From: Primulina eburnea
Lineage: Eukaryota; Streptophyta; Magnoliopsida; Lamiales; Gesneriaceae
Direction of reading: 5' to 3'
Length of the DNA stretch: 64,000 nucleotides
Assembly (NCBI RefSeq): GCF_022965805.1
Contig: NC_133103.1
Span: 34,009,281 to 34,073,280 of the forward strand
The notes beneath the pieces are model-generated. The model had not been told where the DNA came from. It did no database searches and saw only the letters and a program-made list of their open reading frames with translations. Below, one piece after another: positions 5,312 through 64,000 of the stretch (its first letter is position 1; each line of letters begins with the position of its first letter). The position numbers and the translations under genes are program-made.

Positions 5312-7994
5312 CCCCTTCTTATTCCTCGGCAACCCCAAAATAAAGTCCATCGAAATGTCAATCCAAGTTCTTTTTAAGAATAGCACGCAAAAGTGTTCCC
5401 AAAGTTCTATTGAAAACTTCAGTTTGTCCATCCGTTTGAGGATGACAAGTAGTAGAAAACAACAATTTTGTGCCAAGTTTAGCCCATAAAGTCTTCCAAA
5501 AGTAACTCAAGAATTTAACATCGTGACCAGAAACAATAGTCCTAGGCATTCCATGCAACCTAGCGACTTCTCTAAAGAACAAATCCGCAATGTTTGAAGT
5601 TTCATCGGTTTTATGACAAGCTATAAAATGTGCCATCTTAGAGAATCTTTCCACAACAACAAAAATAGTATCCCTCCTCTTCTTAGTCCTAGGCAACCCC
5701 AAAATAAAGTTCATAGAAATGTCAATCCAAGTTCTTTTTAAGAATATCACGCAAAAGTGTTCCCAAAGTTCTATTGACAACTTCAGTTTGTCCATCCGTT
5801 TGAGGATGAAAAGTAGTAGAAAACAACAATTTTGTGCCAAGTTTAGCCCATAAAGTCTTCGAAAAGTAACTCAAGAATTTAACATCGCGACCAGAAACAA
5901 TAGTCCTAGGCATGCCATGCAACCTAACGACTTCTCTAAAGAACAAATCCGCAATGTTTGAAGCATCATCGGTTTTATGACAAGCTATAAAATGTGCCAT
6001 CTTAGAGAATCTATCCACAAAAACAAAAATAGAATCACTCCCCTTCTTATTCCTCGGCAACCCCAAAATAAAGTCCATCGAAATGTCAATCCAAGTTCTT
6101 TTTAAGAATAGCACGCAAAAGTGTTCCCAAAGTTCTATTGAAAACTTCAGTTTGTCCATCCGTTTGAGGATGACAAGTAGTAGAAAACAACAATTTTGTG
6201 CCAAGTTTAGCCCATAAAGTATTCCAAAAGTAACTCAAGAATTTAACATCGCGATTTGAAACAATAATCCTAGGCATTCCATGCAACCTAGCGACTTCTC
6301 TAAAGAACAAATCCGCCATGTTTGAAGCATCATCGGTTTTATGACAAGCTATAAAATGTGCCATCTTAGAGAATCTATCCACAACAACAAAAATAGAATC
6401 CCTCCCCTTCTTAGTCCTAGACAACCTCAAAATAAAGTCCATAGAAATGTCAATCCATGTTCTTTTTAAGAATAGCACGCAAAAGTGTTCCCAAAGTTCT
6501 ATTGACAACTTCAGTTTGTCCATCCGTTTGAGGATGACAAGTAGTAGAAAACAACAATTTTGTGCCAAGTTTAGCCCATAAATTATTCCAAAATTAACTC
6601 AAAAATTTAACATCGCGACCAGAAACAATAGTCCTAGGCATGCCATGCTACCTAACGACTTCTCTAAAGAAAAAATCCGCAATTTTTGAAGCATCATCGA
6701 TTTTATGACAAGCTATAAAATGTGCCATCTTTGAGAATCTATCCACAACAACAAAAATAGAATCCATCCCCTTCTTAGTACTAGGCAACCCCAAAATAAA
6801 GTCCATAGAAATGTCAATCCAAGTTTTTTTAAGAATAGCATGCAAAAGTGTTCCCAAAGTTCAATTGACAACTTCAGTTTGTCGATCCGTTTGAGGATGA
6901 CAAGTAGTAGAAAACAACAATTTTGTGCCAAGTTTAGCCCATAAAGTATTCCAAAAGTAACTCAAGAATTTAACATCGCGACCAGAAACAATAGTCCTAG
7001 CCATTCCATGCAACCTAGAGACTTCTCTAAAGAACAAATCCGCCATGTTTGAAGCATCATCGGTTTTATGACAAGATATAAAATGTGCCATCTTAGAGAA
7101 TCTATCCACAACAACAAAAATAGAATCCCTCCCCTTCTTAGTCCTAGGAAACCCCAAAATAAAGTCCATAGAAATGTCAATCCAAGTTTTTTTTAAGAAT
7201 AGCACGCAAAAGTGTTCCCAAAGTTCTATTGACAACTTCAGTTTGTCCATCCGTTTGAGGATGACAAGTAGTAGAAAACAACAATTTTGTGCCAAGTTTA
7301 GCCCATAAAGTCTTCGAAAAGTAACTCAAGAATTTAACATCGCGACCAGAAACAATAGTCCTAGGCATGCCATGCAACCTAACGACTTCTCTAAAGAACA
7401 AATCCGCAATGTTTGAAGCATCATCGGTTTTATGACAAGCTATAAAATGTGCCATCTTAGGGAATCTATCCACAAAAACAAAAACAGAATCACTCCCCTT
7501 CTTATTCCTCGGCAACCCCAAAATAAAGTCCATCGAAATGTCAATCCAAGTTCTTTTTAAGAATAGCACGCAAAAGTGTTCCCAAAGTTCTATTGAAAAC
7601 TTCAGTTTGTCCATCCGTTTGAGGATGACAAGTAGTTGAAAACAACAATTTTGTGCCAAGTTTAGCCCATAAAGTCTTCCAAAAGTAACTCAAGAATTTA
7701 ACATCGTGACCAGAAACAATAGTCCTAGGCATTCCATGCGACCTAGCGACTTCTCTAAAGAACAAATCCGCAATGTTTGAAGCTTCATCGGTTTTATGAC
7801 AAGCTATAAAATGTGCCATCTTAGAGAATATTTCCACAACAACAAAAATAGTATCCCTCCTCTTCTTAGTCCTAGGCAACCCCAAAATAAAGTCCATAGA
7901 AATGTCAATCCAAGTTCTTTTTAAGAATATCACGCAAAAGTGTTCCCAAAGTTCTATTGACAACTTCAGTTTGTCCATCCGTTTGAGGATGACA
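5312..7994 (-). repeat. Integrase-derived 364-bp satellite, block 1 (minus)
   Basis: About 7.4 tandem units of a Ty3/gypsy integrase-core fragment read on the minus strand. Units show [43 protein letters not shown] and [16 protein letters not shown]. Variants include [12 protein letters not shown] units near 5650 and 7860, about 2183 bp (six units) apart, and [13 protein letters not shown] units near 6040 and 7490. At 6253 the catalytic-site codon encodes Asn where other units have Gly. The block continues after the element at 7995-12402. Confidence 0.96.
7990..7994. other. Target site duplication TGACA (left copy)
   Basis: TGACA at 7990-7994 is repeated at 12403-12407. Removing the element and one copy restores continuous satellite sequence, so 7995-12402 is a real insertion. 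Confidence 0.93.
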
Positions 7995-9110
7995 TGTAGT
8001 GACCCGTTCCAGAATCACCTACTAGTCAAGAACTAAGCATGCAATTAACCTAATTAACAATAATCAGAGATAACAGCGGAAAAGTCAACAACAAAACCGA
8101 TTATACAACCCAATCGAAGTCTAGAATAACTCAAAATAAAAATACCCAATACAACCATATCGAATCAAAACAATACCGATAAACTAAACCAACCAGCTAC
8201 TCAACGTCCTCCTCCTGCTCCTCCTGAGCTGTCCAACCTGAGGCCTGCCCCGTGGGAATGGGGTGTCCAAGAATAAACAAAACCGAGGACGTGAGCGATA
8301 AGAACGCCCAGTACAAAAGTATGAGTATACAGACCTATATGAAATGCACATGCTATGATCATGATACCGGGGTAGTCAAGAAACAGGAGTCACAAAAGGA
8401 TCTCAACAATGCTCAGTCTAGAGGCGCCAAGTGGATAGTGCCGCGCGGTACACCTCTGGGTCACTGCATCCACTACAAGACAGACGTGGACCTAAAATGT
8501 CCCGGACCACCGAAGCCCTCCCGACCCGTCGGCCACTGTGTACTCTCGGTGTCCATGCGTCCACAAGACAGGGCTGAGCGGCCCCAAGATATAGCTTATC
8601 TCGAAAGAGATACAGCTCAACAGTAAAGGCTATCTCAAAGGAGGTACGGCTCAACATGAAATGCAACGTGCAGTAATAAACGTGACATAATAGCATGCAT
8701 CATATGACATATATCAATGCACCACATAATCATGCAACACATATAAGAATGTATACTCAACCAGGATATCTCGGATAGTACTTTCGTACCTCTATCACAG
8801 CAATCCTAATTCACTGGAACAACCAGACAACAGGTCTAATCCAAGCCTATTCATCAAGTGAAAACCATCACTAAACTTATCTACCAGACTTAACTAGATA
8901 ATCCTGAGATAAATACTGATAAAATTCCAAACCTTCGTCCGTCGCTAGCCCGCTGATGCCGCTAGCTCCCAACTAGAGCACAGCTCTGCTACAAGACCAG
9001 CAGCTCCCCGCTAGTGCCCAAATCTCGGAACAAGACTAGAACCTGTCAGAAACGACTGAAATGCTATGGAATTCTCTGAATTGGCGAGTCAAAATGAGGA
9101 AATCCGACCA

Positions 9111-9120
9111 CTATTTATAG
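9111..9120 (-). promoter_or_regulatory. TATA box CTATAAATAG in LTR copy 1
   Basis: The minus strand reads CTATAAATAG, a good plant TATA box, immediately downstream (in element sense) of the palindrome array at 9126-9410. An identical copy lies near 12019-12028. Confidence 0.7.
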
Positions 9121-9125
9121 GCCAT

Positions 9126-9410
9126 GTTCGGATCCTCCGAACACTACTTCGGAACGTCCGAACGCTACGTGTCCATTGGCTCTTGACAGCTCATGATCGG
9201 ATCCTCCGATCATACACTTCGGACCGTCCGAACATGCACGTGTCCAGCTGCTCTTGACACCTCATGATCGGATCCACCGAACCTACACTTCGGAACGTCC
9301 GAACTCCCACGTGTCGATCAACTCTTGACACCTAATGGTCGGATCCACCGAACCCACTTCGGACCTTACGAACTCTTCGGTGCTTCCGAACCATCTTCGG
9401 TCCGTCCGAT
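9126..9410 (-). repeat. TTCGGA-N3-TCCGAA palindrome array in U3
   Basis: About ten 15-17-bp palindromes, such as TTCGGAACGTCCGAA and GATCGGATCCTCCGATC, alternate with diverged spacers carrying TCTTGACA. G-box cores CACGTG sit at 9237-9242 and 9308-9313. The cluster abuts the TATA box and probably forms the upstream promoter. The same array is at about 12035-12320 in the other full LTR. Confidence 0.85.
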
Positions 9411-9494
9411 CATGACTCGGTCAAAATTACACATTAAACCTTCTTAATCACCATTAATCCGTTAATTACCCAATTTGGAATTCGGGCTACTACA

Positions 9495-9530
9495 TTCTCC
9501 CCCCCTTAAAAAGATTTCGTCCTCGAAATC
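9495..9530 (-). promoter_or_regulatory. Polypurine tract and inverted repeat (minus)
   Basis: On the minus strand a G-rich purine run touches the LTR. GATTTCGAGGACGAAATC lies at 9513-9530, identical to 3442-3459. This assigns the element to Ty3/gypsy despite the missing pol. Confidence 0.85.
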
Positions 9531-9841
9531 AAGGCAAGAGAATGAACAAAACGAAAATAACAACATCATTACCCTCCAAATCTAAGGGACAACCCATCAC
9601 TAGACGCTTGGCTAAAACCGAATGACCCATCGGAGTAGAAACGGAAAGAATGACATCTAGAGAAACATGCGGTAACTTATGACGCTTAACAAATCGTCCT
9701 GGTCACCCCAACGACCTACACTTCCCTGACTACTCTCATCACCAAAGTGGTCAGCCATTGCTACAACATAGAATGGGGAAACTAGTAAATTGGTCAACGG
9801 AAATCCCAAAACAGAAATCTATATCCCAAAATCGCATGCAT

Positions 9842-9853
9842 GCTCTGATACCA
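9842..9853 (-). promoter_or_regulatory. tRNA-iMet primer binding site
   Basis: The minus strand reads TGGTATCAGAGC, complementary to the 3' end of plant initiator-Met tRNA. It sits four bases inside the LTR beginning at 9858. A second copy is at 10889-10900. Confidence 0.9.
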
Positions 9854-9857
9854 TAAA

Positions 9858-10618
9858 TGTAGTGACCCGTTCCAGAATCACCTACTAGTCAAGAACTAAG
9901 CATGCAATTAACCTAATTAACAATAATCAGAGATAACAGCGGAAAAGTCAACAACAAAACCGATTATACAACCCAATCGAAGTCTAGAATAACTCAAAAT
10001 AAAAATACCCAATACAACCATATCGAATCAAAACAATACCGATAAACTAAACCAACCAGCTACTCAACGTCCTCCTCCTGCTCCTCCTGAGCTGTCCAAC
10101 CTGAGGCCTGCCCCGTGGGAATGGGGTGTCCAAGAATAAACAAAACCGAGGACGTGAGCGATAAGAACGCCCAGTACAAAAGTATGAGTATACAGACCTA
10201 TATGAAATGCACATGCTATGATCATGATACCGGGGTAGTCAAGAAACAGGAGTCACAAAAGGATCTCAACAATGCTCAGTCTAGAGGCGCCAAGTGGATA
10301 GTGCCGCGCGGTACACCTCTGGGTCACTGCATCCACTACAAGACAGACGTGGACCTAAAATGTCCCGGACCACCGAAGCCCTCCCGACCCGTCGGCCACT
10401 GTGTACTCTCGGTGTCCATGCGTCCACAAGACAGGGCTGAGCGGCCCCAAGATATAGCTTATCTCGAAAGAGATACAGCTCAACAGTAAAGGCTATCTCA
10501 AAGGAGGTACGGCTCAACATGAAATGCAACGTGCAGTAATAAACGTGACATAATAGCATGCATCATATGACATATATCAATGCACCACATAATCATGCAA
10601 CACATATAAGAATGTATA
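9858..10618 (-). repeat. LTR copy 2, truncated
   Basis: It matches the first ~760 bp of LTR copy 1 (plus-strand order), then switches at about 10616-10620 directly into internal sequence equivalent to position 9571. The joint has TAC microhomology. The U3 palindrome array and TATA box are missing from this copy. Confidence 0.92.
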
Positions 10619-10904
10619 CCCTCCAAATCTAAGGGACAACCCATCACTAGACGCTTGGCTAAAACCGAATGACCCATCGGAGTAGAAACGGAAAGAATGA
10701 CATCTAGAGAAACATGCGGTAACTTATGACGCTTAACAAATCGTCCTGGTCACCCCAACGACCTACACTTCCCTGACTACTCTCATCACCAAAGTGGTCA
10801 GCCATTGCTACAACATAGAATGGGGAAACTAGTAAATTGGTCAACGGAAATCCCAAAACAGAAATCTATATCCCAAAATCGCATGCATGCTCTGATACCA
10901 TAAA
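10619..10904 (-). repeat. Second, shortened internal region with primer site
   Basis: It duplicates 9571-9857, including the gag-like start and the primer site at 10889-10900. It lacks the purine tract end. Confidence 0.9.
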
Positions 10905-12402
10905 TGTAGTGACCCGTTCCAGAATCACCTACTAGTCAAGAACTAAGCATGCAATTAACCTAATTAACAATAATCAGAGATAACAGCGGAAAAGTCAACA
11001 ACAAAACCGATTATACAACCCAATCGAAGTCTAGAATAACTCAAATAAAATACCCAATACAACCATATCGAATCAAAACAATACCGATAAACTAAACCAA
11101 CCAGCTACTCAACGTCCTCCTCCTGCTCCTCCTGAGCTGTCCAACCTGAGGCCTGCCCCGTGGGAATGGGGTGTCCAAGAATAAACAAAACCGAGGATGT
11201 GAGCGATAAGAACGCCCAGTACAAAAGTATGAGTATACAGACCTATATGAAATGCACATGCTATGATCATGATACCGGGGTAGTCAAGAAACAGGAGTCA
11301 CAAAAGGATCTCAACAATGCTCAGTCTAGAGGCGCCAAGTGGATAGTGCCGCGCGGTACACCTCTGGGTCACTGCATCCACTACAAGACAGACGTGGACC
11401 TAAAATGTCCCGGACCACCGAAGCCCTCCCGACCCGTCGGCCACTGTGTACTCTCGGTGTCCATGCGTCCACAAGACAGGGCTGAGCGGCCCCAAGATAT
11501 AGCTTATCTCGAAAGAGATACAGCTCAACAGTAAAGGCTATCTCAAAGGAGGTACGGCTCAACATGAAATGCAACGTGCAGTAATAAACGTGACATAATA
11601 GCATGCATCATATGACATATATCAATGCACCACATAATCATGCAACACATATAAGAATGTATACTCAACCAGGATATCTCGGATAGTACTTTCGTACCTC
11701 TATCACAGCAATCCTAATTCACTGGAACAACCAGACAACAGGTCTAATCCAAGCCTATTCATCAAGTGAAAACCATCACTAAACTTATCTACCAGACTTA
11801 ACTAGATAATCCTGAGATAAATACTGATAAAATTCCAAACCTTCGTCCGTCGCTAGCCCGCTGATGCCGCTAGCTCCCAACTAGAGCACAGCTCTGCTAC
11901 AAGACCAGCAGCTCCCCGCTAGTGCCCAAATCTCGGAACAAGACTAGAACCTGTCAGAAACGACTGAAATGCTATGGAATTCTCTGAATTGGCGAGTCAA
12001 AATGAGGAAATCCGACCACTATTTATAGGCCATGTTCGGATCCTCCGAACACTACTTCGGAACGTCCGAACGCTACGTGTCCATTGGCTCTTGACAGCTC
12101 ATGATCGGATCCTCCGATCATACACTTCGGACCGTCCGAACATGCACGTGTCCAGCTGCTCTTGACACCTCATGATCGGATCCACCGAACCTACACTTCG
12201 GAACGTCCGAACTCCCACGTGTCGATCAACTCTTGACACCTAATGGTCGGATCCACCGAACCCACTTCGGACCTTACGAACTCTTCGGTGCTTCCGAACC
12301 ATCTTCGGTCCGTCCGATCATGACTCGGTCAAAATTACACATTAAACCTTCTTAATCACCATTAATCCGTTAATTACCCAATTTGGAATTCGGGCTACTA
12401 CA
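10905..12402 (-). repeat. LTR copy 3 (5' LTR), 1498 bp
   Basis: A nearly identical copy of 7995-9494, ending CTACTACA at 12402 before the right TGACA. It carries the palindrome array at about 12035-12320, a TATA box near 12019 and G-boxes at 12145-12150 and 12216-12221. In element sense this is the transcription-driving LTR. Confidence 0.93.
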
Positions 12403-15083
12403 TGACAAGTAGTAGAAAACAACAATTTTGTGCCAAGTTTAGCCCATAAAGTATTCCAAAAGTAAGAAACAATAGTCCTAGGCATGCCATGCAACCTAAC
12501 GACTTCTCTAAAGAAAAAATCCGCAATGTTTGAAGCATCATCGATTTTATGACAAGGTATAAAATGTGCCATCTTAGAGAATTTATCCACAACAACAAAA
12601 ATAGAATCCATCCCCTTCTTAGTACTAGGCAACCCCAAAATAAAGTCCACTGAAATGTCAATCCAAGTTCTTTTTAAGAATAGCACGCAAAAGTGTTCCC
12701 AAAGTTCTATTGACAACTTCAGTTTGTCCATCCGTTTGAGGATGACAAGTAGTAGAGAACAACAATTTTGTGCCAAGTTTAGCCCATAAAGTATTCCAAA
12801 AGTAACTCAAGAATTTAATATCGCGACCAGAAACAATAGTCCTAGGCATTCCATGCAACCTAGCGACTTCTCTAAAGAACAAATCCGCCATGTTTGAAGC
12901 ATAATCGGTTTTATGACAAGCTATAAAATGTGCCATTTTAGAGAATCTATCCACAACAACAAAAATAGAATCCCTCCCCTTCTTAGTCCTAGGAAACCCC
13001 AAAATAAAGTCCATAGAAATGTCAATCCAAGTTCTTTTTAAGAATAGCACGCAAAAGTGTTCCCAAAGTTCTATTGGCAACTTCAGTTTGTCTATCCGTT
13101 TGAGGATGACAAGTAGTAGAAAACAACAATTTTGTTCCAAGTTTAGCACATAAAGTCTTCGAAAAGTAACTCAAGAATTTAACATCGCGACCAGAAACAA
13201 TAGTCCTAGGCATGCCATGCAACCTAACGACTTCTCTAAAGAACAAATCCGCAATGTTTGAAGCATAATCGGTTTTATGATAAGCTATAAAATGTGCTAT
13301 CTTAGATAATCTATCCACAAAAACAAAAATAGAATCACTCCCCTTCTTATTCCTCGGCAACCCCAAAATAAAGTCCAGCGAAATGTCAATCCAAGTTCTT
13401 TTTAAGAATAGCACGCAAAAGTGTTCCCAAAGTTCTATTGAAAACTTCAGTTTGGCCATCCGTTTGAGGATGACAAGTAGTAGAAAACAACAATTTTGTT
13501 CCAAGTTTAGCCCATAAAGTATTCCAAAAGTAACTCTAAAATTTAACATCGCGACCAGAAACAATATTCCTAGGCATGCCATGCAACCTAACGACTTCTC
13601 TAAAGAAAAAATCCGCAATGTTTGAAGCATCATCGGTTTTATAAAAATCTATAAAATGTGCCATCTTAGAGAATCTATCCACAACAACAAAAATAGAATC
13701 CATCCCCTTCTTAGTCCTAGGCAACCCCAAAATAAAGTCCATCGAAATGTCAATCCAAGTTCTTTTTAAGAATAGCACGCAAAAGTGTTTCCAAAGTTCT
13801 ATTGACAACTTCAGTTTGTCCATCCGTTTGAGGATGACAAGTAGTAGAAAACAACAATTTTGTGCCAAGTTAGCCCATAAAGTATTCCAAAAGTAACTCT
13901 AAAATTTAACATCGCGACCAGAAACAATAGTCCTAGGCATGCCATGCAACCTAACGACTTCTCTAAAGAAAAAATCCGCAATGTTTGAAGCATCATCGGT
14001 TTTATAACAATCTATAAAATGTGCCATCTTAGAGAATCTATCCACAACAACAAAAATAGAATCCATCCCCTTCTTATTCCTCGGCAACCCCAAAATAAAG
14101 TCCATCGAAATGTCAATCCAAGTTCTTTTTAAGAATAGCACGCAAAAGTGTTCCCAAAGTTCTATTGACAACTTCAGTTTGTCCATCCGTTTGAGAATGA
14201 CAAGTAGTAGAAAACAACAATTTTGTGCCAAGTTTAGCCCATAAAGTATTCCAAAAGTAACTCAAGAATTTAACATCGCGACCAGAAACAATAGTCCTAG
14301 GCATTCCATGCAACCTAGCGACTTCTCTAAAGAAACAAATCCGCAATGTTTGAAGCTTCATCGGTTTTATGACAAGCTATAAATGTGCCAAATTAGAGAA
14401 TCTTTCCACAACAACAAAATAGCATCCCTCCCCTTCTTAGTCCTAGGCAACCCCAAATAAAGTCATAGAAATGTCAATCCAAGTTCTTTTTAAGAATAGC
14501 ACGCAAAAGTGTTCTCAAAGTTCTATTGACAACTTCAGTTTGTCCATCCGTTTGAGGATGACAAGTAGTAGAAAACAACAATTTTGTTCCAAGTTTAGCC
14601 CATAAAGTATTCCAAAAATAACTCTAAAATTTAACATCGCGACCAGAAACAATAGTCCTAGGCATGCCATGCAACCTAACGACTTCTCTAAAGAAAAAAT
14701 CCGCAATGTTTGAAGCATCATCGGTTTTATAAAAATCTATAAAATGTGCCATCTTAGAGAATCTATCCACAACAACAAAAATAGAATCCATCCCCTTCTT
14801 AGTCCTAGGCAACCCCAAATAAAGTCCATCGAAATGTCATTCCAAGTTCTTTTTAAGAATAGCACGCAAAAGTGTTCCCAAAGTTCTATTGACAACTTCA
14901 GTTGTCCATCCGTTTGAGGATGACAAGTAGTAGAAAACAACAATTTTGTGCCAAGTTTAGCCCATAAAGTATTCCAAAAGTAACTCAAGAATTTAACATC
15001 GCGACCAGAAACAATAGTCCTAGGCATTCCATGCAACCTAGCGACTTCTCTAAAGAACAATCCGCAATGTTTGAAGCATCATC
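12403..15083 (-). repeat. Integrase-derived 364-bp satellite, block 2 (minus)
   Basis: Continuation of block 1 after the inserted element; about 7.4 units. Early units include one with a deletion across the IVSGRD region (near 12465). From about 14340 to 15060, single-base gains and losses become frequent and break the frames, unlike most of the array. That may reflect decay or consensus error. A unit is interrupted at 15083 by the next LTR. Confidence 0.95.
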
Positions 15084-16691
15084 TGTGACACCTCTATCCC
15101 GTAACAATAAAAATACGCAGCGGAAATAAAATTTTCTTTAAAATATGGAAGGAGTTTCAAAATACATTTCATAAAAATGTTTACAAAATAAATACATGAT
15201 CATTCAAATGATATACAAAATAATCATTCTTATGATCATGTCCCAAAATGATACAAAATAACCTTCCTTCCAACGGTGTATGCATATGACCCCCATCCAC
15301 GATCACTGTCCTGGTCGGTCACTCTTATCTGCATCACATGAAAATAACTGAAATGAGAATAAATCTCAGCAAGTGGAACTCTAACATAGCAATGATACAA
15401 TATACTCTGTAAACATGACTTTGAAATCATAAATACCATCAACTCTGAAACATGAATAATATAGCAATAACTGTAGCAATAGCAATAGCAATAGATAGCA
15501 ATACGATGGTATTTCTCTTTTCTCTGGTTGGATTGATATCAATAGTATCTCTGACTGTGGTTGCAAATATCCCATCGATATAAATCGATAACTGTGAGGG
15601 ATAAAACCCTATGGTTGTTGATCAACTAATTGCATGCAATGCTCTGACTATGATTCAATCAATCCAATAAAACATTTGAACTCTGAATAGCATTTAAGGC
15701 CGTCGTTTCACAATCTCTTATTTTCTCTTGTATTCTCTTTAACAATAGTGAGACATCAATGCCTCCAATAGATAATCAATGGGATCCAATACATAACAAT
15801 GAATCAATTGAAGGGAATATCACTTTAAAATCTTTAAAACACAATACATATAACATCATGTGAGCAAAGGGATGAAATTCCACTTACAAACCAATAGAAC
15901 ATCTCCAAACTATACTCTTGGTACACCACCTACAACAATAATCCATAAATAACACCAATATCAACTCTAAATCCAAAAACTCAATTCAAACAATCCATTA
16001 AACCAACAATAACAACACCCTATAACATCTCATAACCAAAACCATGATAGAACTCAACCAAAAACTTACCTAAGCTTCCTTATACCACGGAGAACCTCGA
16101 TCTCAAGTCGGAAATCCAAACAAATCCAAGAATCAAAGGTAGGAAGCAATTGAAATGGAATAAAACCCTTGGAAAAGGAGAGAAAACGAGTTGGAAGGGA
16201 AAAGATAAGGGAAAGTATGGCGAACCACTCCCAAAAAGTAACTAAATATCTCGCCCATACCTTCACCGCGGGTGCACTGCCACAAGCACCGCGGGTGCGC
16301 TAAGATCACGGCACAACAAAATAAAATCCATGCACGATGACCGCGGGTGCGGTGCTGTTAATACCGCGGGTGCGGTCTCACCGCGGGTGCGGTCCATGCA
16401 CTGCCGCGGGTGCGGTGATGCCACGGCCTTCCAAATCCAAAATGATGAATAGTACACCGCGGGGGCACTCCTCTAAGAGCGCGGGTGCACTCAAGCCACG
16501 GCAATGAACAGTACTCAATCAACAAAAATCGATCCGAAATGCTGAAATGAACAATCAACACCAACTAACACCTCAATAAAACAATAACCAATAATACTAT
16601 GGCCCAAAACACAACTCTAAACATCTAATGACATAACCCAAATAAACATACAAAACTTAAACCGTACCGTACACCGGGCTCGGCTATTACA
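15084..16691 (-). mobile_element. Ty3/gypsy 3' LTR (1608 bp, minus)
   Basis: Plus-strand ends are TGTGACACCTC and GGCTATTACA. A purine tract and integrase gene on the minus strand follow, so this is the 3' LTR. The flanking satellite bases are TCATC (15079-15083); the partner duplication lies beyond the gap or is lost. It contains a short AGCAAT-rich run near 15465-15495 and a palindrome cluster at 16264-16491. The LTR at 48888-49860 belongs to the same family but lacks about 635 bp of the middle. Confidence 0.9.
16264..16491 (-). repeat. ACCGCGGGTGCGGT palindrome cluster in U3
   Basis: About eight copies, exact or degenerate, start near 16264, 16287, 16340, 16362, 16380, 16402, 16456 and 16478. 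The nearest TATA-like sequence in element sense is GATATTTAGT at 16241-16250, just downstream of the cluster. Confidence 0.82.
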
Positions 16692-16727
16692 ATCTCCCCT
16701 CCTTAGAGGAATTTCGTCCGCGAAATT
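16692..16727 (-). promoter_or_regulatory. Polypurine tract and inverted-repeat variant
   Basis: The minus strand reads a purine-rich run against the LTR. AATTTCGCGGACGAAATT lies at 16710-16727, with 7-bp arms around CGGA. It occupies the same position as GATTTCGAGGACGAAATC in the other two gypsy elements. Confidence 0.8.
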
Positions 16728-16731
16728 GACG

Positions 16732-17746: not shown

Positions 17747-17846
17747 NNNNNNNNNNNNNNNNNNNNNNNNNNNNNNNNNNNNNNNNNNNNNNNNNNNNNN
17801 NNNNNNNNNNNNNNNNNNNNNNNNNNNNNNNNNNNNNNNNNNNNNN
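17747..17846. other. Assembly gap (100 N)
   Basis: Exactly 100 N, a conventional placeholder for a gap of unknown size. A minus-strand gypsy element enters from the left and plus-strand satellite emerges on the right, so the true sequence between them is unknown. Confidence 0.99.
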
Positions 17847-47343: not shown

Positions 47344-47347
47344 TGCA

Positions 47348-48753: not shown

Positions 48754-48870
48754 ACTCTACAATGGGCTCACAAAAGACATATCAATATATATAACAATGG
48801 ATAGATGCAAGAAAACATACCCGGACAGTTGAAAGTAGACGAAGTCATATGCATTGGTCCGAAGAACACC

Positions 48871-48882
48871 GCTCTGATACCA
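48871..48882 (-). promoter_or_regulatory. tRNA-iMet primer binding site (minus gypsy)
   Basis: The minus strand reads TGGTATCAGAGC, five bases from the LTR beginning at 48888. Confidence 0.9.
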
Positions 48883-48887
48883 CTAAA

Positions 48888-51923: not shown

Positions 51924-53378
51924 GACATTTCGATGGACTTTATTTTGGGGTTGCCTAGGTCTAAGAAGGGGATGGATTCTATTTTTGTTGTTGTGGATAG
52001 ATTCTCTAAGATGGCACATTTTATAGCTTGTTATAAAACTGATGATGCTTCAAACATTGCAGATTATTTCTATAGAGAATTCGTTAGGTTGCTTGGCATG
52101 CCTAGGACTATTGTTTCTGGTCGCGATGTTAAATTTTTGAGTTACTTTTTGAATACTTTATGGGCTAAACTTGGCACAAAATTGTTGTTTTCTACTACTT
52201 GTCATCCTCAAACGGATGGACAAACTGAAGTTGTCAATAGAACTTTGGGAACACTTTTGCGTGCTATTCTTAAAAAAAACTTGGATTGACATTTCTATGA
52301 ACTTTATTTTGGTGTTGCCTAGGGCTAAGAAGGGGAGGGATTCTATTTTTGTTGTTGTGGATAGATTCTCTAAGATGGCACATTTTATAACTTGTCATAA
52401 AACCGATGATGCTTCAAACATTGCAGATTTGTTCTTTAGAGAAGTCGCTAGGTTGCATGGAATGCCAATGACTATTGTTTCTGGTCGCGATGTTAAATTC
52501 TTGAGTTACTTTTGGAATAATTTATGGGCTAAACTTGGCACAAAATTGTTGTTTTCTAGTACTTGTCATCCTCAAACGGATGCACAAACTGAAGTTGTCA
52601 ATAGAACTTTGGGAACACTTTTGCGTGCTATTCTTAAAAAGAACTTGGATTGACATTTCTATGGACTTTATTTTGGGGTTGCCTAGGACTAAGAAGGGGA
52701 TGGATTCTATTTTTGTTGTTGTGGATAGATTCTCTAAGATGGCACATTTTATAGCTTGTTATAAAACTGATGATGCTTCAAACATTGCAGATTGTTTCTT
52801 TAGAGAATTCGTTAGGTTGCTTGGCATGCCTAGGACTATTGTTTCTGGTCGCGATGTTAAATTTTTGAGTTACTTTTTGAATACTTTATGGGCTAAACTT
52901 GGCACAAAATTGTTGTTTTCTACTACTTGTCATCCTCAAACGGATGGACAAACTGAAGTTGTCAATAGAACTTTGGGAACACTTTTGCGTGCTATTCTTA
53001 AAAAGAACTTGGATTGACATTTCTATGGACTTTATTTTGGTGTTGCCTAGGGCTAAGAAGGGGAGGGATTCTATTTTTGTTGTTGTGGATAGATTCTCTA
53101 AGATGGCACATTTTATAACTTGTCATAAAACCGATGATGCTTCAAACATTGCGGATTTGTTCTTTAGAGAAGTCGCTAGGTTGCATGGAATGCCAATGAC
53201 TATTGTTTCTGGTCGCGATATTAAATTCTTGAGTTACTTTTGGAATACTTTATGGGCTAAACTTGGCACAAAATTGTTGTTTTCTACTACTTGTCATCCT
53301 CAAACGGATGGACAAACTGAAGTTGTCAATAGAACTTTGGGAACACTTTTGCGTGCTATTCTAAAAAGAACTTGGATT
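51924..53378 (+). repeat. Two-monomer (728-bp) higher-order repeat
   Basis: Units alternate B (51924, 52652: AAAACTGATG, GAATTCG, TTTTTGAAT) and C-like (52288, 53016: GGTGTTGCC, GCCAATGAC, AACTTGTCAT). Confidence 0.78.
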
Positions 53379-55196
53379 GACATTTCGATGGACTTTATTT
53401 TGGGGTTGTCGAGGAATAAGAAGGGGAGTGATTCTATTTTATTTTTGTGGATAGATTCTCTAAGATGACAAATTTTATAGCTTGTCATAAAACCTATGAT
53501 GCTTCAAACATTGCGGATTTGTTCTTTAGAGAAGTCGCTAGGTTGCATGGAATGCCTAGGACTATTGTTTCTGGTCGCGATGTTAAATTCTTGAGTTACT
53601 TTTGGAAGACTTTATGGGCTAAACTTGGCACAAAATTGTTGTTTTCTACTACTTGTCATCCTCAAACGGATGGACAAACTGAAGTTTTCAATAGAACTTT
53701 GGGAACACTTTTGCGTGCTATTCTTAAAAAGAACTTGGATTGACATTTCGATGGACTTTATTTTGGGTTTGTCGAGGAATAAGAAGGGGAGTGATTCTAT
53801 TTTTGTTTTTGTGGATAGATTCTCTAAGATGACAAATTTTATAGCTTGTCATAAAACCGATGAAGCTTCAAACATTGCGGATTTGTTCTTTAGAGAAGTC
53901 GCTAGGTTGCATGGAATGCCTGGGACTATTGTTTCTGGTCGCGATGTTAAATTCTTGAGTTACTTTTGGAAGACTTTATGGGCTAAACTTAGCACAAAAT
54001 TGTTGTTTTCTACTACTTGTCATCCTCAAACGGATGGACAAACTGAAGTTTTCAATTGAACTTTGGGAACACTTTTGCCTGCTATTTTTAAAAAGAACTT
54101 GGATTGACATTTCGATGGACTTTATTTTGGGGTTGCCTAGGACTAAGAAGGGGATGGATTCTATTTTTGTTGTTGTGGATAGATTCTCTAAGATGGCACA
54201 TTTTATAGCTTGTCATAAAACCAATGATGCTTCAAACATTGCGGATTTGTTCTTTAGAAAAGTCGCTAGGTTGCATGGAATGCATAGGACTATTGTTTCT
54301 GGTCGCGATGTTAAATTCTAGAGTTACTTTTGGAATACTTTATGGGCTAAACTTGGCACAAAATTGTTGTTTTCTACTACTTGTCATCCTCAAACGGATA
54401 GACAAACTAAAGTTGTCAATAGAACTTTAGGAACACTTTTGCGTGCTATTCTTAAAAAGAACTTGGATTGACATTTCTATGGACTTTATTTTGGAGTTGC
54501 CTAGGACTAAGAAGGGGATGGATTCTATTTTTGTTGTTGTGGATAGATTCTCTAAGATGGCACATTTTATAGCTTGTTATAAAACCGATGATGCTTCAAA
54601 ATTGCGGATTTGTTCTTTAGAGAAGTCGCTAGGTTGCATGGAATGCCTAGGACTATTGTTTCTGGTCGCGAAGTTAAATTCTTGAGTTACTTTTGGAATA
54701 CATTATGGGCTAAATTGGCACAAAATTGTTGTTTCCTACTACTTGTCATCCTCAAACGGATGGACAAACTGAAGTTTTCAATTGAACTTTGGGAACACTT
54801 TTGCGTGCTATTCTTAAAAAGAACTTGGATTGACATTTCGATGGACTTTATTTTGGGGTTGCCGAGGAATAAGAAGGGGAGTGATTCTATTTTTGTTTTT
54901 GTGGATAGATTCTCTAAGATGGCACATTTTATAGCTTGTCATAAAACCGATGATGCTTCAAACATTGCGGATTTGTTCTTTAGAGAATTTCGTTAGGTTG
55001 CATGGAATGCCTAGGACTATTGATTTTGGTCGCGATGTTAAATTCTTGAGTTACTTTTCGAAGACTTTATGGGCTAAACTTGGCACAAAATTGTTGTTTT
55101 CTACTACTTGTCATCCTCCAACGGATGGACAAACTGAAGTTGTCAATAGAACTTTGGGAACACTTTTGCGTGCTATTCTTAAAAAGAACTTGGATT

Positions 55197-58100
55197 GACA
55201 TTTCTATGGACTTTATTTTGGGGTTTCCTAGGACTAAGAAGGGGAGGGATTCTATTTTTGTTGTTGTGGATAGATTCTCTAAGATGGCACATTTTATAGC
55301 TTGTCATAAAACCGATGATGCTTCAAACATGGCGGATTTGTTCTTTAGAGAAGTCGCTAGGTTGCATGGAATGCCTAGGACTATTGTTTCTGGTCACGAT
55401 GTTAAATTCTTGAGTTACTTTGGGAATACTTTATGGGCTAAACTTGGCACAAAATTGTTGTTTTCTACTACTTGTCATCCTCAAACGGATGGACAAACTG
55501 AAGTTGTCAATAGAACTTTGGGAACACTTTTGCGTGCTATTCTTAAAAAGAACTTGGATTGACATTTCTATGGACTTTATTTTGGGGTTGCCTAGGACTA
55601 AGAAGGGGATGGATTCTATTTTTGTTGTTGTGGATAGATTCTCTAAGATGGCACATTTTATAGCTTGTTATAAAACTGATGATGCTTCAAACATTGCAGA
55701 TTATTTCTTTAGAGAATTCGTTAGGTTGCTTGGCATGCCTAGGACTATTGTTTCTGGTCGCGATGTTAAATTTTTGAGTTACTTTTTGAATACTTTATGG
55801 GCTAAACTTGGCACAAAATTGTTGTTTTCTACTACTTGTCATCCTCAAACGGATGGACGAACTGAAGTTGTCAATAGAACTTTGGGAACACTTTTGCGTG
55901 CTATTCTTAAAAAGAACTTGGATTGACATTTCTATGGACTTTATTTTGGTGTTGCCTAGGACTAAGAAGGGGAGGGATTCTATTTTTGTTGTTGTGGATA
56001 GATTCTCTAAGATGGCACATTTTATAACTTGTCATAAAACCGATGATGCTTCAAACATTGCGGATTTGTTCTTTAGAGAAGTCGCTAGGTTGCATGGAAT
56101 GCCAATGACTATTGTTTCTGGTCGCGATGTTAAATTCTTGAGTTACTTTTGGATTACTTTATGGGCTAAACTTGGCACAAAATTGTTGTTTTCTACTACT
56201 TGTCATCCTCAAATGTATGGACAAACTGAAGTTGTCAATAGAACTTTGGGAACACTTTTGCATGCTATTCTTAAAAAGAACTTGGATTGACATTTCTATG
56301 GACTTTATTTTGGGGTTGCCTAGGACTAAGAAGGGGATGGATTCTATTTTTGTTGTTGTGGATAGATTCTCCAAGATGGCACATTTTATAGCTAGTTATA
56401 AAACCGATGATGCTTCAAACATTGCGGATTTTTTCTTTAGAGAAGTCGTTAGGTTGCATGGCATGCCTAGGAATATTGTTTCTTGTCGCGATGTTAAATT
56501 TTTGAGTTACTTTTGGAATACTTTATGGGTTAAACTTGGCACAAAATTGTTGTTTTCTACTACTTGTCATCCTCAAACGGATGGACAAACTGAAGTTGTC
56601 AATAGAACTTTGGGAACACTTTTGCGTGCTATTCTTAAAAAGAACTTGGATTGACATTTCTATGGACTTTATTTTGGGGTTTCCTAGGACTAAGAAGGGG
56701 AGGGATTCTATTTTTGTTGTTGTGGATAGATTCTCTAAGATGGCACATTTTATAGCTTGTCATAAAACCGATGATGCTTCAAACATGGCGGATTTGTTCT
56801 TTAGAGAAGTCGCTAGGTTGCATGGAATGCCTAGGACTATTGTTTCTGGTCACGATATTAAATTCTTGAGTTACTTTGGGAATACTTTATGGGCTAAACT
56901 TGGCACAAAATTGTTGTTTTCTACTACTTGTCATCCTCAAACGGATGGACAAACTGAAGTTGTCAATAGAACTTTGGGAACACTTTTGCGTGCTATTCTT
57001 AAAAAGAACTTGGATTGACATTTCTATGGACTTTATTTTGGGGTTGCCTAGGACTAAGAAGGGGAGGGATTCTATTTTTGTTGTTGTGGATAGATTCTCT
57101 AAGATGGCACATTTTATAACTTGTCATAAAACCGATGATGCTTCAAACATTGCGGATTTGTTCTTTAGAGAAGTCGCTAGGTTGCATGGAAAGCCAATGA
57201 CTATTGTTTCTGGTCGCGATGTTAAATTCTTGAGTTACTTTTGGATTACTTTATGGGCTAAACTTGGCACAAAATTGTTGTTTTCTACTACTTGTCATCC
57301 TCAAACGGATGGACAAACTGAAGTTGTCAATAGAACTTTGGGAACACTTTTGCATGCTATTCTTAAAAAGAACTTGGATTGACATTTCTATGGACTTTAT
57401 TTTGGGGTTGCCTAGGACTAAGAAGGGGATGGATTCTATTTTTGTTGTTGTGGATAGATTCTCCAAGATGGCACATTTTATAGCTAGTTATAAAACCGAT
57501 GATGCTTCAAACATTGCGGATTTTTTCTTTAGAGAAGTCGTTAGGTTGCATGGCATGCCTAGGAATATTGTTTCTGGTCGCGATGTTAAATTTTTGAGTT
57601 ACTTTTGGAATACTTTATGGGTTAAACTATGCACAAAATTGTTGTTTTCTACTACTTGTCATCCTCAAACGGATGGACAAACTGAAGTTGTCAATAGAAC
57701 TTTGGGAACACTTTTGCGTGCTATTCTTAAAAAGAACTTGGATTGACATTTCTATGGACTTTATTTTGGGGTTTCCTAGGACTAAGAAGGGGAGGGATTC
57801 TATTTTTGTTGTTGTGGATAGATTCTCTAAGATGGCACATTTTATAGCTTGTCATAAAACCGATGATGCTTCAAACATGGCGGATTTGTTCTTTAGAGAA
57901 GTCGCTAGGTTGCATGGAATGCCTAGGACTATTGTTTCTGGTCACGATGTTAAATTCTTGAGTTACTTTGGGAATACTTTGTGGGCTAAACTTGGCACAA
58001 AATTGTTGTTTTCTACTACTTGTCATCCTCAAACGGATGGACAAACTGAAGTTGTCAATAGAACTTTGGGAACACTTTTGCGTGCTATTCTTAAAAAGAA

Positions 58101-58835
58101 CTTGGATTGACATTTCTATGGACTTTATTTTGGTGTTGCCTAGGACTAAGAGGGGGAGTGATTCTATTTTTGTTGTTGTGGATAGATTCTCTAAGATGGC
58201 ACATTTTATAACTTGTCATAAAACCGATGATGCTTCAAACATTGCGGATTTGTTCTTTAGAGAAGTCGCTAGGTTGCATGGAATGCCAATGACTATTGTT
58301 TCTGGTCGCGATGTTAAATTCATGAGTTACTTTGGATTACTTTATGGGCTAAACTTGGCACAAAATTGTTGTTTTCTACTACTTGTCATCCTCAAACGGA
58401 TGGACAAACTGAAGTTGTCAATAGAACTTTGGGAACACTTTTGCATGCTATTCTTAAAAAGAACTTGGATTGACATTTCTATGGACTTTATTTTGGGGTT
58501 GCCTAGGACTAAGAAGGGGATGGATTCTATTTTTGTTGTTGTGGATAGATTCTCCAAGATGGCACATTTTATAGCTAGTTATAAAACCGATGATGCTTCA
58601 AACATTGCGGATTTTTTCTTTAGAGAAGTCGTTAGGTTGCATGGCATGCCTAGGAATATTGTTTCTGGTCGCGATGTTAAATTTTTTAGTTACTTTTGGA
58701 ATACTTTATGGGTTAAACTTGGCACAAAATTGTTGTTTTCTACTACTTGTCATCCTCAAACGGATGGACAAACTGAAGTTGTCAATAGAACTTTGGGAAC
58801 ACTTTTGCGTGCTATTCTTAAAAAGAACTTGGATT
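55197..58835 (+). repeat. Three-monomer (1092-bp) higher-order repeat A-B-C-D-A-C-D-A-C-D
   Basis: Units start at 55197 A, 55561 B, 55925 C, 56289 D, 56653 A, 57017 C, 57381 D, 57745 A, 58109 C and 58472 D. Diagnostics: A has GGTTTCC, ACATGGCGG, GGTCACGAT and TTTGGGAAT. C has GCCAATGAC (GCATGG or GCAAGC variants) and GGATTAC. D has CTCCAAG, AGCTAGTTAT, AGGAATATTG and GGGTTAAAC. The A-C-D trimer occurs three times (the first with B inserted), with near-identical copies. This is classical satellite homogenisation. Confidence 0.88.
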
Positions 58836-59154
58836 GACATTTCTAGGAACTTTATTTTGGGGTTGCCTAGGACTAAGAAGTGGAGGGATTCTATTTTTGT
58901 TGCTGTGGATAGATTCTCTAAGATGTCACATTTTATAGCTTGTCATAAAACCGATGAAGCTTCAAACATTGCGGATTTGTTCTTTAGAGAAGTCGTTAGG
59001 TTGCATGGCAGGCCTAGGAATATTGTTTCTGGTCGCGATGTTAAATTCTTGAGTTACTTTTGGAAGACTTTATGGGCTGAACTTGGCACAAAATTGTTGT
59101 TTTCTACTACTTGTCATCCTCAAACGGATGAACAAACTGAAGTTTTCAATTGAA

Positions 59155-60296
59155 CTTTGGGAACACTTTTGCGTGCTATATTTAAAAAGAACTTGGATTG
59201 ACATTTCGATGGACTTTATTTTGGGGTTGCCTAGGACTAAGAAGGGGATGGATTCTATTTTTGTTGTTGTGGATAGATTCTCTAAGATGGCACATTTTAT
59301 AGCTTGTCATAAAACCGATGATGCTTCAAACATTGCGGATTTGTTCTTTAGAAAAGTCGCTAGGTTGCATGGAATGCATAGGACTATTGTTTCTGGTCGC
59401 GATGTTAAATTCTTGAGTTACTTTTGGAATACTTTATGGGCTAAACTTGGCACAAAATTGTTGTTTTCTACTACTTGTCATCCTCAAACGGATGGACAAA
59501 CTGAAGTTGTCAATAGAACTTTAGGAACACTTTTGCGTGCTATTCTTAAAAAGAACTTGGATTGACATTTCTATGAACTTTATTTTGGGGTTGCCTAGGA
59601 CTAAGAAGTGCAGGGATTCTATTTTTGTTGTTGTGGATAGATTCTCTAAGATGACACATTTTATAGCTTGTCATAAAACCGATGAAGCTTCAAACATTGC
59701 GGATTTGTTCTTTAGAGAAGTCGCTAGGTTGCATGGAATGCCTAGGACTATTGTTTCTGGTCGCGATGTTAAATTCTTGAGTTACTTTTGGAAGACTTTA
59801 TGGGCTAAACTTGGCACAAAATTGTTGTTTTCTACTACTTGTCATCCTCAAACGGATGGACAAACTGAAGTTTTCAATTGAACTTTGGGAACACTTTTGC
59901 GTGCTATTTTTAAAAAGAACTTGGATTGACATTTTGATGGACTTTATTTTGGGGTTGCCTAGGACTAAGAAGGGGATGGATTCTATTTTTGTTGTTGTGG
60001 ATAGATTCTCTAAGATGGCACATTTTATAGCTTGTCATAAAACCGATGATGCTTCAAACATTGCGGATTTGTTCTTTAGAAAAGTCGCTAGGTTGCATGA
60101 AATGCATAGGACTATTGTTTCTGGTCGCGATGTTAAATTCTTGAGTTACTTTTGGATTACTTTATGGGCTAAACTTGGCACAAAATTGTTGTTTTCTACT
60201 ACTTGTCATCCTCAAACGGATGGACAAACTGAAGTTGTCAATAGAACTTTGGGAACACTTTTGCGTGCTCTTCTTATAAAGAACTTGGATTGACAT
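59155..60296 (+). repeat. Part of a four-monomer (1455-bp) repeat flanking the solo LTR
   Basis: The run with GAAGTGCAGGG (near 59606), CATGAAATGCA and TGCTCTTCTT reappears 3625 bp later (63231 onward). That distance equals the 2165-bp LTR, 5-bp duplication and 1455 bp. The LTR therefore separates two copies of a four-unit repeat. Confidence 0.82.
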
Positions 60297-60521
60297 TTCT
60301 ATGGACTTTATTTTGGGGTTTCCTAGGACTAAGAAGGGGATGGATTCTATTTTTGTTGTTGTGGATAGATTCTCTAAGATGGCACATTTTATAGCTTGTT
60401 ATAAAACCGATGATGCTTCAAAATTGCGGATTTGTTCTTTAGAGAAGTCGCTAGGTTGCATGGAATGCCTAGGACTATTGTTTCTGGTCGCGATGTTAAA
60501 TTCTTGAGTTACTTTTGGAAT

Positions 60522-60526
60522 ACTTT
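60522..60526. other. Target site duplication ACTTT (left; right copy 62692-62696)
   Basis: ACTTT is present on both sides of 60527-62691. Removing the LTR and one copy restores the standard GGAATACTTTATGGG of the monomer. Confidence 0.95.
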
Positions 60527-60679
60527 TGTAATGCCCGAGGAATTTATCCCGTTAATTCCAAATGAGTTAGCGATGATTATTATAATCTACTGGTGATAAT
60601 CGATTTTATTATAGACGAAAGAGATCGGACCGCAAAAGACGAGAAAATACATCAAATAATCAGAAGGGCCGAAGCCATG

Positions 60680-60927
60680 GCGCACATGCGCGAAGAAATG
60701 CGCGCATATGCGCGACATGTCCAGAAGGTTCGGCGCATATGCGCGACGTAGATGGCGCACATGCGCGGGAGGGACAGTAGGCTTGGCGCATATGCACGAG
60801 GGGCATGGTGCGTGACCAGTAGGTCTCGCTCATATGCGCGACTTGAGTTCGCGCATATGCGCGAGGAGTGCAGAAGCTGGACAATGCTTCCGGCGCATAT
60901 GCGCGGGCATCGAGCGCGCATATGCGC
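60680..60927 (+). repeat. GCGCATATGCGC palindrome cluster (9 copies)
   Basis: Copies lie near 60680, 60702, 60733, 60755, 60786, 60827, 60851, 60893 and 60916. The core is a perfect 12-bp palindrome; some copies read GCGCACATGCGC. The cluster lies about 50 bp upstream of a TATATATA run. Confidence 0.88.
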
Positions 60928-60977
60928 CAGTCATGCAAAACGTAAGCTTGCCATTTGGCTTATTGCATGTCCGAGAT

Positions 60978-60999
60978 GTATATATATATATATACATAT
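60978..60999 (+). promoter_or_regulatory. Putative TATA region of solo LTR
   Basis: An alternating TA run (60979-60995) followed by ATAAACG, just downstream of the palindrome cluster. Simple-repeat character lowers certainty. Confidence 0.5.
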
Positions 61000-61740
61000 A
61001 AACGTTAATCAGCAGAAGAAAATCGAGGATTGAAGGGAAAGCTTACTTCTTAATTTTGAAACTTGATTTACGAGCGAACCGTCTATCTGAATTAAAATCC
61101 GACTTCGGTACTATGTTCCTATCAACGCAGGATACAACTGGACGTAAGTTTTGTTACGTTTTGACATGTCTTGAAATTATGATGTTGTTAGAATTGAATA
61201 CACGTCATATATGTTGTTCTTGACATGTTAGACAGCGTAGAATCGAAGTCAGATTAAGAAACGGATTGAATATGAAATTGTTATGATTTTCGGAGTAGTT
61301 TTGGAGCCGATTTGATATCAGAATTGAGTTGTTATTGATTATAGAATTGATATCTGACTGATATGATAGGGCTGGATATATTGAGATTATGATGTTATGT
61401 TGTTGAAACATAATTTGATTGAATTCTGTTTGTATCCAGTATTAATTGAGTGGTGTATTGATACCATACCCTCGATATTGTTATTGTCAGACTGAGTATT
61501 GAGAGGCTTGGGGTTCGAGACTTCGACAGAGCCAGGGTATCAGAAAGAAAGGTATAAATTAATGTTGAGTTGGGATTGCACAACTCGAGGAAGGTTTGAC
61601 TCGAGTTTCCCTAAATCACATACTTAGTTTATTACATTGATTCTTGTAATTCATGAGATTGATGATTGTAGTCTATTTATTTATAGCCACTGCATGTAAT
61701 GACTGCTGATTCGCTAGTCATTGATTGATTTGCTTAGATA

Positions 61741-62020
61741 CTGACTGTATGTATTGATTACTGAGTCGTTGAGTCATAGGCTGATTCGCCTAGTCACCGG
61801 CTGATTCGTCGGGTTATTGACTGATTCGTCTTATTATAGGCTGATTCGCCTAGTCACCGGCTGATTCGTCGGGTGATTGACTGATTCGTCTAAACTTAAG
61901 CTGATTCGCTTAATTACAGGCTGATTCGTCTGGTTATTGGCTGATTCGCCTAATTACCGGCTGATTCGTCAGGTTATTGACTGAGTCGTCAATTCTGCGG
62001 CTGATTCGCCCAGACACTGA
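61741..62020 (+). repeat. 20-bp minisatellite, 14 copies in exact register
   Basis: From 61761 to 62020 every 20 bp restarts with CTGATTCG or CTGAGTCG, followed by a variable tail such as CCTAGTCACCGG or TCGGGTTATTGA. The copy at 61741 is degenerate, and related sequence begins near 61706. There are no indels among the 13 register copies. It is absent from the related LTR at 3480-5311. Confidence 0.93.
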
Positions 62021-62120
62021 TATATGAATTATATCGATGCCGTTTAGGGATTGATTCATTCCTATCGACTGAGATTCGATATAATACCTATATTCAGACA
62101 TCGGGATCCCTAGGATAGAG

Positions 62121-62204
62121 TTGAGTCGAGTCTGAGACGACGCGTCAGTGGAGTCGAGTCTGAGACGACGCGTCGGTTGAGTTGAGTCTGATATGACATG
62201 TTGA
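62121..62204 (+). repeat. 28-bp tandem triplication
   Basis: Copies at 62121, 62149 and 62177 share GAGTCGAGTCTGAGACGACG; the third is diverged. Confidence 0.88.
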
Positions 62205-62374
62205 TTTACATTGTTTATGCCATTCATGATTATTGAATGTTTGATATGAATTTATGTTTCTGATTTGAGACATGTTATGAATACTTCTTATATATGCTAT
62301 CGTATATGCTTTTATATGACTGCATGTTTACATTGTTTATACTGGGATATTTATATCTCACCGGAGTTATCCGG

Positions 62375-62409
62375 CTGTTGTCTTGTTTTGTATGTGTGCA
62401 TGACAACAG
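62375..62409 (+). other. Conserved LTR stem-loop (CTGTTGTC / GACAACAG)
   Basis: Same 8-bp arms as 4995-5028, at 62375-62382 and 62402-62409, with a 19-nt loop. Loop bases differ between the two LTRs while the arms are unchanged. Confidence 0.6.
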
Positions 62410-62691
62410 GTGGGGCTGGATCAGGGTCAGGAAGAAGATGAGAGAAGATTAGATAGCGTGGAGATCCGGGCTTCGAAGCAACATAGGATTCAGCACTGAT
62501 ATGTAGTTGAACCTAGTTGAATTCTTGTAGATAACGCAAGATTTGTATGTTCATGTTTAAAATGTAATTTGAGTAAATTACATTACGTTTCCGCTTTGTA
62601 TTTTAAAAAAAAAAAATTTAGACCCTGTTTTATAATTGATTAATTAGTCCCAAACATGATTAAGAACTTGATTAGCGTCCGGGTCCCCACA

Positions 62692-64000
62692 ACTTTATGG
62701 GCTAAACTTGGCACAAAATTGTTGTTTTCTACTACTTGTCATCCTCAAACGGATGGACAAACTGAAGTTGTCAATAGAACTTTAGGAACACTTTTGCGTG
62801 CTATTCTTAAAAAGAACTTGGATTGACATTTCTATAGACTTTATTTTGGGGTTGCCTAGGACTGAGAAGGGGATGGATTCTATTTTTGTTGTTGTGGATA
62901 TATTCTCTAAGATGGCACATTTTATAGCTTGTCATAAAACCGATGATGCTTCAAACATTGCGGATTTGTTCTTTAGAAAAGTCGCTAGGTTGCATGGAAT
63001 GCATAGGACTATTGTTTCTGGTCGCGATGTTAAATTCTTGAGTTAGTTTTGGAATACTTTATGGGCTAAACTTGGCACAAAATTGTTGTTTTCTACTACT
63101 TGTCATCCTCAAACGGATGGACAAACTGAAGTTGTCAATAGAACTTTAGGAACACTTTTGCGTGCTATTCTTAAAAAGAACTTGGATTGACATTTCTATG
63201 GACTTTATTTTGGGGTTGCCTAGGACTAAGAAGTGCAGGGATTCTATTTTTGTTGTTGTGGATAGATTCTCTAAGATGACACATTTTATAGCTTGTCATA
63301 AAACCGATGAAGCTTCAAACATTGCGGATTTGTTCTTTAGAGAAGTCGCTAGGTTGCATGGAATGCCTAGGACTATTGTTTCTGGTCGCGATGTTAAATT
63401 CTTGAGTTACTTTTGGAAGACTTTATGGGCTAAACTTGGCACAAAATTGTTGTTTTCTACTACTTGTCATCCTCAAACGGATGGACAAACTGAAGTTTTC
63501 AATTGAACTTTGGGAACACTTTTGCGTGCTATTTTTAAAAAGAACTTGGATTGACATTTTGATGGACTTTATTTTGGGGTTGCCTAGGACTAAGAAGGGG
63601 ATGGATTCTATTTTTGTTGTTGTGGATAGATTCTCTAAGATGGCACATTTTATAGCTTGTCATAAAACCGATGATGCTTCAAACATTGCGGATTTGTTCT
63701 TTAGAAAAGTCGCTAGGTTGCATGAAATGCAAAGGACTATTGTTTCTGGTCGCGATGTTAAATTCTTGAGTTACTTTTGGATTACTTTATGGGCTAAACT
63801 TGGCACAAAATTGTTGTTTTCTACTACTTGTCATCCTCAAACGGATGGACAAACTGAAGTTGTCAATAGAACTTTGGGAACACTTTTGCGTGCTCTTCTT
63901 AAAAAGAACTTGGATTGACATTTCTATGGACTTTATTTTGGGGTTTCCTAGGACTAAGAAGGGGATGGATTCTATTTTTGTTGTTGTGGATAGATTCTCT
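62692..64000 (+). repeat. Integrase-derived 364-bp satellite, block 6 (plus)
   Basis: About 3.6 units continuing past the window end. One unit has a TAG in place of TAC near 63044, and another a TGA near 63504. Units copy those at 59155-60526. Confidence 0.95.

Follow-up and report, generated by a model that had tools for sequence, protein, structure and literature searches.

A tandem array derived from a Ty3/gypsy integrase core, probably a non-coding satellite, in Primulina eburnea

A 64,000-nucleotide stretch of the Primulina eburnea genome (contig NC_133103.1, positions 34,009,281 to 34,073,280; hereafter the window) carries a long tandem array whose 364-bp unit matches the catalytic core of a Ty3/gypsy retrotransposon integrase, set among long terminal repeat (LTR) retrotransposons and their fragments (Table 1). 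Tandem Repeats Finder returned a period of 364 over the stretches claimed for the array, with some rows of 363 or 337, and a BLAST search of the unit against the window gave 105 matches, 93 of them near-complete. The array totals 35,609 bp in six blocks, two on the minus and four on the plus strand, corresponding to 98.27 monomer-equivalents, in line with an earlier note on this DNA that had counted about 98 units in six blocks over about 35 kb. The span of 5312–64000 assigned to the array in that note does contain it, but also takes in about 23 kb of non-array sequence, including a gap of 100 N.

Pairwise identity among the 93 near-complete units averages 95.8% (range 89.7–100%), confirming the high uniformity reported before; 63 units are 364 bp long, 15 are 363 bp, four are 337 bp and the other 11 have further lengths from 360 to 367 bp. 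With 98.3 unit-equivalents at this mean identity, the locus shows the long head-to-tail arrays of homogenised monomers typical of satellite DNA. The 93 units form no regular higher-order repeat; a lag of eight units is slightly over-represented, and the closest relative of a unit is found eight ranks off in 14 cases and in a different block in 33. Ancestry from a 182-bp half-unit was ruled out, as an ungapped comparison of the two halves gave 23% identity. A 12-bp direct repeat is present within the unit at positions 35–46 and 182–193, 147 bp apart; both copies fall on similar integrase coding stretches, and the repeat is possibly fortuitous.

Table 1. Array blocks, inserts and other features of the window (target duplications read by eye).
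Feature	Position	Strand	BLAST extent	Remarks
Array block 1	5312..7994	-	5312-8000	about 7.4 units; first base directly after a gypsy-type LTR end (..CCCACA at 5311)
Array block 2	12403..15086	-	12402-15086	about 7.4 units
Array block 3	17847..28934	+	17847-28934	about 30.5 units; includes three stretches of the 337-bp variant
Array block 4	31096..38483	+	31096-38483	about 20.3 units
Array block 5	50072..60526	+	50072-60526	about 28.7 units
Array block 6	62692..64000	+	62692-64000	about 3.6 units; continues beyond the window end
Representative unit in integrase frame	20807..21169	+		121 codons; Pfam rve, residues 5-97
Young LTR-type insert TGTAGT...ACTACA	7995..12402	+		5-bp target duplication TGACA at 7990-7994 and 12403-12407
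Probable solo LTR TGTAATG...CCCACA	60527..62691	+		5-bp target duplication ACTTT at 60522-60526 and 62692-62696
LTR-like insert	28935..31095	+		shares 87% identity with 39476-41626, an LTR-like stretch at the copia element
Composite insert	38484..50071			minus-strand gypsy pieces with a nested plus-strand Ty1/copia element (ORF 43567-47343)
Gypsy fragment	15087..17746	-		stretch similar to 48891-49862 (LTR-like) plus C-terminal part of an integrase; truncated by the assembly gap
Assembly gap, run of 100 N	17747..17846			array orientation changes here

The monomer originates in integrase-coding sequence. The representative unit, the one of the 93 that was scanned, matched Pfam rve above the cut-off, and its translation aligned with yeast Ty3 integrase (Gag-Pol 7q5b) over residues 1–118 of 121 (E=1.2e-31). 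In a large protein collection it had 7,128 homologues at E≤0.001; among the 120 listed, the top-ranked is 88% identical over the whole unit and another is 89% identical over 94% of it. These proteins mostly extend beyond both ends of the unit (..PIPSEPW before it and ..KN[LI]K.WEDCLPHVEFAYNR after it, in the first 60 alignments), which places the monomer within a longer integrase-coding region, and not in the LTR or untranslated sequence that gave rise to satellites of the CRM1TR or Ogre type. At three of its 121 positions (Ala56, Gly68 and Asn79), the unit consensus has a residue found in no more than two of the 120 listed homologues, suggesting that these changes date from the founder or shortly thereafter. 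The gypsy integrases flanking the array in the window are unlikely to represent the parent or carrier of the unit, to which they are only 47.5–49.2% identical. All this supports the general description in the earlier note of a satellite-type array with an integrase-core monomer among nested LTR elements.

The units have lost a residue required for catalysis. Their SGRD aligns with SDRD in Ty3, and the replaced Asp, which we take to be the second catalytic residue from the known D,D(35)E pattern, lies at a position separated from the Glu by 35 residues, fitting that pattern. Among the 120 listed homologues the position holds Asp in 111 and Gly in two; among the 93 units it holds Gly in 91, Asn in one and Cys in one, so that the D,D,E triad of a functional integrase is broken. 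SGRD, quoted earlier as evidence for the core, is thus itself the site of the loss, and the earlier wording that the units encode a catalytic core is correct as to homology but not as to a working core or any clear coding constraint.

Because 364 is not divisible by three, the frame moves by one base with every unit, and the longest run without a stop that any block offers on the array sense strand measures 291 codons. In the integrase frame, 54 of the 93 units have neither stop nor frameshift, while a stop occurs in 21 and a frameshift in 26. Variability among units is flat across codon positions 1, 2 and 3 (0.0215, 0.0222 and 0.0271), whereas a positive control, one pair of flanking gypsy integrase genes, showed a third-position excess in both of its aligned stretches (0.198/0.148/0.381 and 0.114/0.147/0.364). 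For distinct variants, the ratio of non-synonymous to synonymous changes (N/S) is 1.22 (bootstrap 0.96–1.62), compared with 0.97–1.16 overall in the wrong frames, and 13 distinct stop variants were seen against 12.7 expected. We read these flat codon positions and the near-neutral N/S as the absence of clear coding constraint, and of the purifying selection expected of a functional integrase, during the life of the array; a count of all variant occurrences, given below, leaves room for a weak trace. With the catalytic Asp lost, the frame shifting at each unit, flat codon-position variation and N/S near neutrality, the array is DNA, not a gene.

At two sites the order of events can be read directly. 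The target duplications around the young LTR-type insert and the probable solo LTR consist of unit sequence, and therefore blocks 1 and 2, as well as blocks 5 and 6, were formerly continuous and were interrupted by the inserts. The terminal repeats of the young insert (8001–9493 and 10911–12401) are 99.8% identical, so that this insertion is recent. At the inserts at 28935–31095 and 38484–50071, no clean target duplication was seen, and the unit positions on either side do not meet.

We consider it probable, at about 0.86, that the array is a non-coding satellite that arose from an internal, mutated pol fragment, was spread by recombination and subsequently received LTR-element insertions. Its founder may have been a single copy of a Ty3/gypsy integrase gene, with the Asp-to-Gly change either already present or gained at that time; illegitimate recombination within the coding sequence of this gene would have produced the head-to-tail joint. 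At the joint, AAGAACTTGGATTGAC, the codons found after the core in homologues (KN[LI]K, Asn-Leu/Ile) run directly into the Trp that starts the core (PW); the two parental ends may have shared up to four bases (CTTG) here, if the parent codons were TTG and CCT. The homogeneity and local duplications of the array suggest that unequal exchange, gene conversion or rolling-circle reinsertion raised the copy number of the 364-bp unit, which was homogenised to about 96%, and younger LTR retrotransposons would have inserted afterwards. No action at the protein level would be expected of such an array, and any role would be that of heterochromatic, perhaps (peri)centromeric, DNA.

The window has two one-mismatch matches to a CENP-B-box-like motif, which occurs in some centromeric satellites; both lie outside the array blocks, and 5.59 would be expected by chance. 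A (peri)centromeric place is plausible, given the repeat density and the monomer length, with 364 bp at the upper edge of the 140–360 bp given as the common range of plant satellite monomers (PMC9904347).

Several results weigh against a non-coding satellite. When every variant occurrence is counted, N/S is 0.83, slightly under the wrong frames (1.10 and 1.16), and stops number 25 against 38.0 expected, a result that could reflect either slight residual constraint or the spread of a few variants; the count of distinct variants gives no such sign. Also, in a search of the window at the DNA level, no sequence outside the array matched the unit beyond chance, and hence no parent element was found there. 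The stop deficit, together with the units free of stops and frameshifts and the rve score above the cut-off, could be taken to mean that selection acts on a domesticated tandem family of integrase-like genes; with a frame that advances by one base per unit, a catalytic Asp gone in 91 of the 93, flat codon positions and neutral distinct variants, we find this scarcely credible. The array could instead have expanded from a tandem repeat inside a non-autonomous LTR retrotransposon and been spread by transposition, in the manner of Ogre-linked satellites. LTR-like sequence does adjoin it at 5311 and elsewhere, and nine Lathyrus sativus satellites also occur as short arrays within Ogre elements (PMC7004042). 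Such an origin is unlikely, since the bordering LTR elements interrupt units at two sites with target duplications of their own, the flanking gypsy integrases are too divergent to make likely carriers, and Ogre repeats, in the same account, sit downstream of the coding region and not within it.

The minus-to-plus switch of the array coincides with the 100-N gap, so that an inversion is not established and the switch may reflect a scaffolding choice. The array stretches on either side of the gap are 95–96% identical inverted copies, as expected of any two stretches of this array, and these features might point to unit copies made by the assembler. We rate this as very improbable, because the units differ by 4.2% on average and two insertions with target duplications lie inside units, unlike the products of collapse or looping; the arrangement across the gap is still doubtful. 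The gypsy piece to the left of the gap (17549–17746) shares 94% identity over 198 bp with the beginning of another gypsy piece, the one adjoining the array at 38485, which leaves the contig order near the gap open to question. A long shot, finally, is that the array acts as a trans-silencing locus, in which antisense or two-way transcripts across dozens of copies of the integrase gene's most conserved part would yield small RNAs directing methylation to active chromoviruses of the same clade. Were this so, a fragment coding for the core would have been retained because it matches every live element. This proposal is compatible with the non-coding, catalytically dead state of the array and, if the arrangement across the gap is real, with blocks in both orientations.

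Satellites of retroelement origin are known; an origin in the integrase-coding interior is uncommon. A centromeric 250-bp tandem repeat of wheat relatives, described by Cheng and Murata in 2003, is reportedly derived from Ty3/gypsy gag, not from integrase. The maize arrays CRM1TR and CRM4TR are likewise tandem arrays derived wholly from Ty3/gypsy elements and invaded by younger retrotransposons (Sharma et al. 2013, PMC3648361); that study describes them as chromovirus-derived, located in or near centromeres, and explained by illegitimate recombination followed by gene conversion, with monomers drawn from LTR and untranslated region, whereas the present unit comes from within the integrase-coding region. 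In Lathyrus sativus, the Ogre-linked FabTR satellites (Vondrak et al. 2019, PMC7004042) similarly combine a Ty3/gypsy origin with long expanded arrays; they are preferentially pericentromeric and nine derive from repeats downstream of the Ogre coding region. The earlier note called a coding-derived monomer unusual, which is fair, although it is not unique: NicCL3 of Nicotiana tomentosiformis also includes part of a Ty3/gypsy body, with 40% amino-acid identity over a small region, in a 2.2-kb compound monomer in which its authors found no Pfam domain (PMC3351487), unlike the present 364-bp unit, which is all integrase core. PpSat3 of Phytophthora parasitica is a further gypsy-related satellite, with 88% of its 294-bp length similar to a Gypsy element, but it belongs to an oomycete and has 62% GC, unlike the present array (PMC7290008). 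Among the listings and passages of open-licence papers covered by the literature searches, we met no description of a satellite made solely of an integrase core.

The locus thus offers a clean case in which the monomer is the DNA of a protein-coding domain alone, so that its origin and its lost coding constraint are directly readable. It bears on the birth of satellites, that is, whether any sequence may serve or LTR and untranslated parts are preferred. It also calls for caution in annotation, as a domain search on translated units would yield many 'integrase' domains that are no genes.

The earlier description of the inserts as nested chromoviruses holds in part. The gypsy ORF (open reading frame) at 1948–3384 has a chromodomain match of 22.9 bits, just under the Pfam cut-off of 25.1; one insert is identified by Pfam RVT_2 as Ty1/copia, and others resemble LTR-only pieces. 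The Pfam scan covered one unit and five of the ORFs of at least 150 amino acids outside the array; the earlier statement that host genes are lacking fits the ORFs scanned but is unproved, as those at 44896–45465 (antisense) and 48250–48756 and shorter ones lay outside the scan. No Rfam match at gathering score and no tRNA were found in the window. Among 120 listed relatives of the copia protein, the named matches are plants (Centaurea, Trifolium, Hibiscus, Henckelia, Malus and others) at 49–60% identity, apart from one labelled Salmonella enterica (57%), taken as mislabelled or a contaminant; the most similar listed match reaches 69%. Parts of the probable solo LTR resemble 3910–5311. The young insert contains a third, partial terminal-repeat copy at 9864–10619 (100% identical to 8001–8756) and a repeated inner stretch, as if two elements had fused or replication had switched template.

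A 21-mer from the unit junction, used to look for the same array elsewhere, had no exact match in viral contigs and one in genome contigs, a set that may omit near relatives of the window; this match, in an archaeal contig, was set aside as chance, with no similarity to the unit or to integrase nearby. A peptide-pattern scan of viral contigs matched 16 stretches, none confirmed as a relative, and when the first 60 residues of a junction-crossing reading frame were searched against proteins, four candidates and no match resulted.

Singleton variants among the units comprise 51 transitions and 95 transversions, and this near-absence of transition bias is odd for methylated plant heterochromatin. 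C-to-T change per site among units is 2.5 at CG, 1.0 at CHG (only seven sites) and 1.85 at CHH. Five other repeat comparisons in the window gave transition:transversion ratios of about 0.7 to 1.4 (102:119, 29:21, 7:10, 34:49 and 35:41), and two more showed a clear transition excess (8:3 and 26:11). Lastly, short GC-rich tandem motifs (ACCGCGGGTGCGGT and its reverse complement) occur at 36–120, 3685–3766, 16340–16416 and 49526–49586, in four gypsy-like flanks outside the array.

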